A stretch of 64,000 nt of DNA. Origin: Haloterrigena alkaliphila (lineage in GTDB: Archaea > Halobacteriota > Halobacteria > Halobacteriales > Natrialbaceae). Below, one piece after another: positions 46,674 to 48,810 of this stretch. Made by a program: the position numbers and the translations under genes. The DNA lies in contig NZ_CP071462.1 of assembly GCF_017352155.2 (NCBI RefSeq), positions 3,286,001 to 3,350,000 on the forward strand, in the 5' to 3' direction. Every line of letters begins with the position of its first letter. Within the stretch, counting starts at the first letter, position 1. Under the pieces are notes generated by a model. The model saw only the letters and a list, made by a program, of their open reading frames with translations, had not been told where the DNA came from and did no database searches.

Positions 46674-46794
46674 ACCGGCCGCGATCGATTCGCGACTGGT
46701 CGAACCGAACCGCGTCACCTGAACCGCGCAAACCGGACCGCACCAACGGAACCGCGTCCGACGACTTTTCTCCGTGCTCGCGGTACCCCATTGC

Positions 46795-47280
46795 ATGACC
46801 GACGCGCATCCCGTCGACGTCGCACTCGAGAACCGGCTGATGGGCCGGGGGATCTACGTGACCGACTGCGAGTATCGCCCGCCCGACGGCGATGTGGGCG
46901 ACGCCGATTCGTCGGAGGGCGACGTGGACGACACCGATCCGTCCGCCGGCCACACGGACGATACTGATCTGTCCGACGACAGCCTCGTCACGCCGCCGGA
47001 CGGGACCGGACTCGTGCTCGAGTACGAGACCGTCTCCGAAACGGCCGGGGTGGAGAGCGGCGAGGTCGGTACCGTCGTCCGGACGGTACTCGACGTCGCC
47101 GCCGAACGCGAGTGGTCGCCGGGGCGTCTCGAGGCGACGTCGCTGACGACCGACGGGGACGTCCGGGGGCACTGGCACGTCGAGCGGGACTGGTTCGATC
47201 GGCTCGGCATCGGGCTGGACGACCTCGAGTTCTCGCAGCGCGTTCTCGAGACGAGACGGTCGGACGCCGCCGAAAAGTAG
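46795..47280 (+). CDS. Conserved acidic haloarchaeal protein, unknown function
   Basis: The 161-residue protein begins MTDAHPVDVALENRLMGRG, followed by an acidic insertion of repeated short Asp-rich phrases (about 34-60; SSEGDVDDTDPSAGHTDDTD), then a beta-rich domain with VLEYETVSETAGVESGEVGT. It has no catalytic motif. It sits between tpiA and the TIR-domain gene on the same strand. The Asp-rich phrases differ by small steps and look like an internal expansion. Confidence 0.7.
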   Translation: MTDAHPVDVALENRLMGRGIYVTDCEYRPPDGDVGDADSSEGDVDDTDPSAGHTDDTDLSDDSLVTPPDGTGLVLEYETVSETAGVESGEVGTVVRTVLDVAAEREWSPGRLEATSLTTDGDVRGHWHVERDWFDRLGIGLDDLEFSQRVLETRRSDAAEK

Positions 47281-47324
47281 GTAGATTAATACTGTCTCAC
47301 ACACGTACCTGTCGTAGATCGCAA

Positions 47325-47936
47325 ATGACCGGAGAACAGATCTACGTCTCGCACGCGCCCGGCGACCTCGAGCTCGTCCAGGAGCTGTTCTCGACGGTCA
47401 AGAACTTCCCCTTCGGCGTCCACATCGCGCTCGAGGAGGTCGAGTCCGGTCGCTCGCGAAAACGACTCGAGGGGCGCGTCGCGAACAGCGACGTCGTCGT
47501 CGCGGTGCTGACCGACGACTCGGCCGATAATCGGTGGATCAACCAGGAGATCGGCTACGCGACGGCCAAGGGGATTCCGGTCGTCCCGCTCTACGAGCAC
47601 GAGCGCCACCGCGGAGGCTTCATCGACGGCGTCGACGGCGTGACGATCGATCGGCAAAACCCGTCGTTTACGATCTTCAACCTGGTCAGCCGGCTGCGGA
47701 GCGAACTCGCCCCGCTGGGCGCCCTCTCGGTGCCCAACTGGTACATTCGATTCCCGTGTACGATTCCCGACTGCGGCCACCAGGTCACGCTCGAGATCGA
47801 GGACGGTCAGACGAAACTCTGGACGCGATACAAGCACGGTAAACCCCTGCGAACGACGTGTGGGGACTGTGACTCGACGTACTACTTCGATCCGGCGACG
47901 ATCGGCTACGTCCGCCGGGAGGACGCCGTCCAGTGA
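47325..47936 (+). CDS. TIR-domain protein with C-terminal zinc site
   Basis: The 203-residue protein has a TIR-like domain at residues 1-125. It runs IYVSHAPGDLELVQELF, an LEEVESGRS loop, VVVAVLTDDSADNRWINQEI with W71 and E75, and GIPVVPLYEHE. The W-x3-E step is where catalytic TIR NADases keep their glutamate. Residues 140-190 hold CTIPDCGH (C145, C150) and CGDC (C179, C182), a zinc-ribbon-like site. It may be a cytoplasmic NAD-processing or signalling protein. Its partner is not obvious, and it converges with the J-domain gene. A TATA-like ATTAAT lies near 47285-47290. Confidence 0.8.
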   Translation: MTGEQIYVSHAPGDLELVQELFSTVKNFPFGVHIALEEVESGRSRKRLEGRVANSDVVVAVLTDDSADNRWINQEIGYATAKGIPVVPLYEHERHRGGFIDGVDGVTIDRQNPSFTIFNLVSRLRSELAPLGALSVPNWYIRFPCTIPDCGHQVTLEIEDGQTKLWTRYKHGKPLRTTCGDCDSTYYFDPATIGYVRREDAVQ

Positions 47937-47967: not shown

Positions 47968-48666
47968 TCAGTCGTCCTCGAGCCGTTCGTAGGCGTCTCT
48001 GACCAGTTTGAACGCGGACCGACTGCCGCTCTCCCGGTCGGGATGGGCGCGTTTGACTTGCCGGTGGAACGCCTCGCGGAGCTCGTCGTCGGTCGCTCCC
48101 GTTTCGACACCGAGCACCTCGCGAGCCTTCGTTTTCCGCATGTCGACGTCTTTGACGATTCCGTCGTCCTCGGCGCGCGCCTTGCAGTCGGGACAGAGCC
48201 GCTCCGTTCGGTCGTCGACGGTCGTCACGCGGTAGAGTTCGGCGGCGACCCACTCGTTACACTGGGTACAGAGCGATTCGTCGCCCGTCTCGGTCTGGTC
48301 CTCGATGTCGGCGCCGCGGTCGTCGGCCGTATTGGTCGACTCAGTCGCCTCTCTACCCGTCCCGTCTTCGGTCGTTCTACCGGGGGCCTCGGCTACACAG
48401 GCCGGACAACAGGAGAGAACGGTCCCGTCCTCGAGCACGATATCCTCGAGTTCGGCCTCGAGGACGGTGCTGGTACAGCCGTCGCAGGTGGCCCGCAGCT
48501 GGTCGAGCGAGGAACACTTCCGAGCGGCCTCGCGGGCGTGTGGCTCACACCGCGGGCAACAGGCCACCTGCTCGCCGTCCGGCATCGTGATCGCCGTCAG
48601 CTCCTCGAGGGGGACCGTTCGGCCACACCCATCGCAGCCCGCCTGACGGTCGTCGGCCACTGCCAT
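47968..48666 (-). CDS. J-domain protein with three zinc knuckles
   Basis: The 232-residue protein has three Cys4 modules: CDGC with CPRC (about 10-45), CDGC with CPAC (about 61-90), and CTQC with CPDC (about 132-162), then a C-terminal J domain with the HPD triad in VKRAHPDRES. J domains stimulate Hsp70 ATPase, so the protein may hand clients to DnaK. This is not standard DnaJ, because the J domain is last and the zinc modules are unlike the DnaJ Cys-rich region. The ATG at 48666 (MAVADDRQAGC) is preferred over 48687. Confidence 0.8.
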   Translation of the reverse strand: MAVADDRQAGCDGCGRTVPLEELTAITMPDGEQVACCPRCEPHAREAARKCSSLDQLRATCDGCTSTVLEAELEDIVLEDGTVLSCCPACVAEAPGRTTEDGTGREATESTNTADDRGADIEDQTETGDESLCTQCNEWVAAELYRVTTVDDRTERLCPDCKARAEDDGIVKDVDMRKTKAREVLGVETGATDDELREAFHRQVKRAHPDRESGSRSAFKLVRDAYERLEDD

Positions 48667-48810
48667 TACGCACCCCTTCGTATTCATCCCTCATTAGTTT
48701 TCTTTTGATATGACATCTCCGAACGACCAGCGGGGCGATGCGAGTAGCCCGCGGGGACACCACGGCGAAGAACCGGGACACCGATATGGATTCGGCCTCG
48801 AGAGACGGCT

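Follow-up and report, generated by a model that had tools for sequence, protein, structure and literature searches.

TIR domains are known above all for their roles in immunity and cell death. Some of them, such as AbTir, BtTir and SARM1, are NAD+ hydrolases, and E208 of AbTir is the catalytic Glu (PMC10022894). The bacterial chaperone Hsp33 senses HOCl and other oxidants by means of a zinc centre with four cysteines. Upon oxidation the zinc is released, two disulfides are formed and almost half of the protein unfolds (PMC8282892). A literature search for a published fusion of a TIR domain with Hsp33 found none.

The window analyzed here is a stretch of 64,000 nucleotides from Haloterrigena alkaliphila (contig NZ_CP071462.1). 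An earlier interpretation of this DNA from its letters alone (here called the sequence-only reading) had proposed that one of its genes encodes a TIR domain fused to a separate zinc domain with four cysteines (Cys4 domain). This architecture was borne out by a match to Pfam TIR_2 (E 2.5e-9) and by the invariance of all four cysteines. We will name the product the TIR-Zn protein. The features of the locus, in window coordinates, are as follows.

47325..47936, + strand: gene of the TIR-Zn protein, 203 aa plus stop (translation; start and length shared by homologues; dN/dS)
47325..47717, + strand: TIR domain, residues 1-131 (Pfam TIR_2 and ThsB_TIR; model matches TIR structures)
47535..47549, + strand: catalytic-type motif WINQE, W71 to E75 (aligned with W204 and E208 of AbTir; E75 invariant)
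47718..47933, + strand: C-terminal Cys4 domain, residues 132-203, assigned to the Hsp33 redox-switch type (1xjh, E 7.8e-6; hhalign 95%; shuffles 0/200)
47757..47774, + strand: proximal cysteine pair C145 x4 C150 (invariant; CXXC in methanogens, CXC in Hsp33)
47859..47870, + strand: distal cysteine pair C179 xx C182 (invariant; aligned with the CXXC of Hsp33)
47286..47291, + strand: TATA-like TTAATA about 33 nt before the ATG, candidate promoter (recurs upstream of many homologues)
46774..47280, + strand: upstream acidic protein, 168 aa (no match in Pfam)
47968..48687, - strand: convergent J-domain protein with several CxxC pairs (Pfam DnaJ, 1.8e-10)

The gene and its TIR domain

The reading frame at 47325-47936 (+) is intact and was translated into 203 aa followed by a stop. 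M1 is invariant in 74 homologues and the median dN/dS is 0.23; thus, the frame represents a real gene, and this gene is under purifying selection. A TTAATA-like element recurs about 27-35 nt before the ATG of many homologues, as judged by eye and without a statistical test, and suggests that the gene has its own promoter. An operon with tpiA was considered and rejected, since the TATA-like element is located in the gap before the TIR-Zn gene.

Pfam TIR_2 matched residues 6-92 of the protein with a score of 38.1 bits, over the curated cut-off of 28, and exceeded its cut-off in all family members tested. ThsB_TIR matched residues 19-94 (E 1.2e-5), also over the curated cut-off. A search of the PDB with the profile of the whole family returned AbTir (6.1e-6) and BtTir (1.1e-5) for the N-terminal half. 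When the family profile was aligned with AbTir, W71 fell on W204 and E75 on E208. This Glu is invariant in 94 sequences (74 haloarchaeal and 20 from methanogens). W71, E75, C145, C150, C179 and C182 are all invariant in the 74 haloarchaeal sequences, and the 20 methanogen relatives retain E75 and the four cysteines but not W71. The joint alignment, in which the methanogen rows are about 26% identical to the window protein, contains E75, G77, A79, R125, L134, W139, C145, C150, C179, C182 and T192 as invariant positions.

The AlphaFold model of the 203-aa protein (mean pLDDT 75, one of five models being clearly better than the others) exhibited a complete TIR fold, and TIR structures headed the lists of both Foldseek and VIA-align. 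VIA-align gave Z 12.6 for the TIR of SPARTA. The sequence-only reading had numbered the Trp, the Glu and the four cysteines correctly and had placed E75 at the position of the catalytic Glu, in agreement with the AbTir alignment. It had also proposed a comparison with SARM1 and other TIR structures, and the model indeed matched the NAD+-bound form of SARM1 with Z 12.1 over 124 residues.

Deoxyribosyltransferases and DNPH1 reached Z 11.6-11.7 with the same model. This is a tie with the TIRs, and consequently structure alone cannot choose between a TIR and these N-glycosidases. The protein might be a nucleotide or nucleoside N-glycosidase of the deoxyribosyltransferase or DNPH1 kind, acting in metabolism or in the sanitation of damaged nucleotides under oxidation. 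Such an enzyme would share the logic of the catalytic Glu, and the stretch EIGYA..KGIPVVPLY resembles Pfam Nuc_deoxyrib_tr. The matches to this model (E 1.2e-4 for the window protein, P0001, and 8.5e-6 for the family member L081) stayed below the cut-off, with 22.6 and 26.3 bits versus 28.8. In contrast, TIR_2 outscored Nuc_deoxyrib_tr and was over its own cut-off in every member tested, and the full-family profile matched TIR proteins first. We therefore regard a nucleotide-metabolizing enzyme of this kind as very improbable.

A TIR adaptor which has no enzymatic activity, carries a structural zinc domain and works by oligomerization only would agree with the behaviour of W71, which is invariant in haloarchaea and lost in methanogens. 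Across TIR groups a conserved Glu by itself is not correlated with enzymatic activity, and its presence is not always paired with reported activity (PMC7075850). However, E75, G77 and A79 remained invariant across about 25% identity, and an adaptor of this type appears unlikely.

The Cys4 domain

The profile of the Cys4 domain (A5) was compared with the PDB. The best match was 1xjh (E 7.8e-6), a structure of the redox-switch domain of Hsp33 from E. coli, followed by 1i7f (2.1e-4); the next entry was RPB12 (0.009). In the same PDB search in which the whole-family profile had found the TIR NADases, its C-terminal half matched Hsp33 again (1xjh, 2.1e-4; 1i7f, 0.0025). Alignment of the Cys4 family with eleven Hsp33 C-terminal domains, 1xjh included, by hhalign resulted in a probability of 95.0%. 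Haloarchaea alone gave 93.4 and methanogens alone 67.0. Five alignments of other zinc domains, used as controls, reached no more than 12%. With all cysteines masked the value against Hsp33 was still 65%. When the non-Cys columns were shuffled and the cysteines kept fixed, 0 of 200 shuffles reached the real score of 42.6, the best one scoring 26.0. A reciprocal search with the Hsp33 profile ranked members of the TIR family first. At the level of sequence, the homology of the Cys4 domain to the Hsp33 switch thus extends beyond the cysteines.

The proximal cysteines are spaced CX4C in haloarchaea and CXXC in methanogens, and the distal ones CXXC. Because this differs from the CXC plus CXXC of Hsp33, the domain is named Hsp33-type and not Hsp33. 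A zinc domain built on CXXC pairs is frequently structural only. The isolated Cys4 model (small, pLDDT 78) yielded weak, unrelated matches with Foldseek and VIA-align, and Hsp33 was not listed. The Pfam HSP33 model matched the TIR-Zn family marginally (E 0.2). Full-length Hsp33 (PF01430) had no Pfam match up to E 1 in the 203-aa window protein and was not found in the own genome or in 41 relatives, while eight bacterial controls were positive. Across 295 genomes of the phylum, matches to the Pfam model were sub-cut-off only. Across the 197 phylum genomes searched for it, the Cys4 domain itself occurred solely at the end of the TIR-Zn protein, with the exception of one broken fragment. This second copy of the zinc domain is interrupted by two stops (G371:C1:352974-353147) and is the sole occurrence outside a TIR protein.

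According to the sequence-only reading, the protein could be a self-contained sensor-effector whose zinc domain senses nucleic acid or protein. The architecture fits a sensor-effector, and this part of the idea is plausible. A zinc ribbon for nucleic acids was considered and rejected: matches to Pfam ribbons were scattered and sub-threshold, and the oxidation switch of Hsp33 was the best and the only specific match. The trigger of the TIR-Zn protein is likely oxidation rather than nucleic acid.

Distribution and gene neighbourhood

The TIR-Zn gene is carried, in one copy each, by 63 of the 74 sampled Natrialbaceae genomes and by five more from two further families of haloarchaea. A profile search detected the same two-domain protein, mostly of 184-209 aa, outside the haloarchaea. 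Since mcrA was present in all of the 21 non-haloarchaeal carriers tested, these are methanogens. The protein was found in 33/33 good-quality genomes of methanogen family f33 and in 45/86 genomes of methanogen family f19. In four f33 loci (L110, L112, L113, L119) the TIR-Hsp33-switch gene is directly followed by the gene of a SPOUT-type methyltransferase and by a ribosomal-protein operon; these were identified by reading their sequences.

Nearly all Natrialbaceae loci read, and those of family f7, showed the order hisC, pgsA, aMBF1, tpiA, (acidic gene), TIR, reversed J-domain gene. The gene context differs in the two f10 loci. In the eleven Natrialbaceae that lack the gene, the corresponding position shows a clean gap. 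The TIR proteins diverge from one another 1.7 times as much as the housekeeping neighbours do, and the two sets of distances correlate only moderately (r 0.62-0.72); thus, lateral exchange may have occurred to some extent within the family.

Upstream of the TIR-Zn gene, tpiA is located just past the acidic gene. The latter was not detected at L024, L028, L029, L038, L046 and L091, where tpiA and TIR are still side by side. The acidic protein was rejected as an obligate partner, since it was undetected beside several TIR-Zn homologues. Among the loci that carry TIR, 24 of 30 also have the J-domain gene, compared with 2 of 10 among those that do not (Fisher p 0.0012); this association is weak because of joint deletion and shared ancestry. 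The protein encoded at 47968-48687 (-) of the window carries its J-domain at the C-terminus, and its loss tends to go with the loss of TIR.

No ThsA or other defence gene was found beside the TIR-Zn gene. In nearly all loci its neighbours are the acidic protein, tpiA, the J-domain protein and DUF3054. The STALD domain of ThsA had no match in 41 genomes, and the controls gave no match either. Phage records contained no match to the gene, and two plasmid records matched the protein. One of these matches, in Natrinema thermotolerans (CP031304.1:633576-634175, H1), is on a 987-kb secondary replicon listed as a plasmid. A methanogen family member had no match in plasmid records. One viral contig showed a weak match of 38 residues. 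A mobile or viral origin was rejected on the basis of the phage and plasmid searches and the size of that replicon. The TIR-Zn gene is chromosomal, single-copy and near-core. Its fixed chromosomal place in most relatives suggests a built-in, possibly oxidant-triggered function of the cell and not mobile defence, and it looks like a near-core stress gene.

The sequence-only reading had correctly named an acidic protein and a J-domain protein as the neighbours; the former has no Pfam match, and the gene of the latter is convergent. The comparison of homologous gene neighbourhoods that it had suggested revealed one fixed site after tpiA in Natrialbaceae. A role in mobile immunity was not supported, as the gene is near-core, in one copy at a fixed chromosomal site, and has neither defence neighbours nor viral carriage.

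Defence is the role of most studied prokaryotic TIRs, and the protein could instead be a chromosomal antiviral sensor-effector, with a zinc domain that responds to infection and not to oxidation, and a TIR that either depletes NAD or produces a signal. Weak matches to ThsB in PADLOC (E 1.9e-6) and the ThsB_TIR match over the Pfam cut-off are in line with this. On the other hand, the NCBIfam Thoeris cut-offs are far above the TIR-Zn score, and the single copy at a near-core, fixed site amid housekeeping genes, the purifying selection, the missing ThsA and other defence genes, and the 0 phage and two plasmid matches all speak against it. An antiviral function is therefore doubtful.

The housekeeping-like distribution and the position ahead of the ribosomal-protein operon in the four f33 loci would also suit an RNA-directed TIR, whose zinc domain binds RNA and whose TIR strips nicotinamide from NAD-capped RNA in normal RNA turnover. 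This Glu-dependent reaction was reported for AbTir and archaeal TcpA, and Haloferax contains NAD-RNAs (PMC10937652, PMC10663502). However, the zinc domain resembles a redox switch and not a known RNA-binding ribbon, and active enzymes were reported to have a positive surface near the site, whereas here the TIR has a net charge of -6 and the zinc domain is about neutral (-1). The acidity of proteins usual in halophiles weakens the charge argument. We assign a low probability to RNA as the target.

Proposed mechanism and comparison with known systems

From the computed results (a TIR domain by homology and fold, with E75 in the catalytic place; four conserved cysteines; homology to the Hsp33 switch; a near-core gene at a fixed site) we infer, at slightly short of an even chance, a TIR N-glycosidase, probably an NADase, which is gated by oxidation of the Hsp33-type zinc switch and serves as a chromosomal stress-response enzyme. 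With E75, the TIR domain would cleave an N-glycosidic bond. Most likely this would be the bond to nicotinamide in NAD+ (with ADPR or a cyclic ADPR as the product) or in NAD-capped RNA. By analogy with Hsp33, the reduced zinc domain would keep the TIR inactive until oxidation sets it free. In the reduced state the four cysteines would hold zinc, and the Cys4 domain would restrain self-association of the TIR or opening of its pocket. Oxidants such as HOCl, or peroxide together with partial unfolding, may then lead to the disulfides C179-C182 and C145-C150, upon which zinc would be expelled, the Cys4 domain would unfold and the TIR would be released. In methanogens, which are anaerobes, the presence of an oxidant sensor calls for a separate rationale.

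Somewhat more tentatively, the homologues may form an undescribed, ancient archaeal family of oxidation-gated NAD consumers. As a core function of the cell, these would translate oxidative stress directly into a loss of NAD+ or an ADPR signal, in lineages where canonical Hsp33 was not found. If true, a near-core archaeal TIR wired to an Hsp33-related switch would be an example of TIR catalysis that is linked to stress and not to immunity, and the family may bear on the use of TIR signalling outside defence. As a small, self-contained enzyme candidate, the protein would have a trigger that is directly testable in vitro.

The TIR-Zn protein shares the TIR fold with Thoeris ThsB and is over the Pfam cut-off of ThsB_TIR. 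Unlike ThsB, it has no ThsA neighbour, is encoded by a near-core single-copy gene, carries an extra zinc domain and scores far below the NCBIfam Thoeris cut-offs. TcpA and TcpO are likewise archaeal TIRs and are reported to cleave NAD+; they comprise 327 and 341 aa, belong to other lineages and are described with no mention of a zinc switch (PMC10937652). The four invariant cysteines, the distal CXXC, the intervening helix and the tail past the CXXC (Y-x-F-D/N) align with the switch of Hsp33 (HslO). In contrast to Hsp33, the TIR-Zn protein has no chaperone core, its proximal pair is CX4C or CXXC and not CXC, and the switch is joined to a TIR. With AbTir, BtTir and SARM1 it has the TIR fold and a Glu at the catalytic place in common, and the haloarchaeal members also the Trp four residues before this Glu. 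It differs from these enzymes in its size of only about 200 aa and in the Hsp33-type zinc domain, which replaces other regulatory domains.
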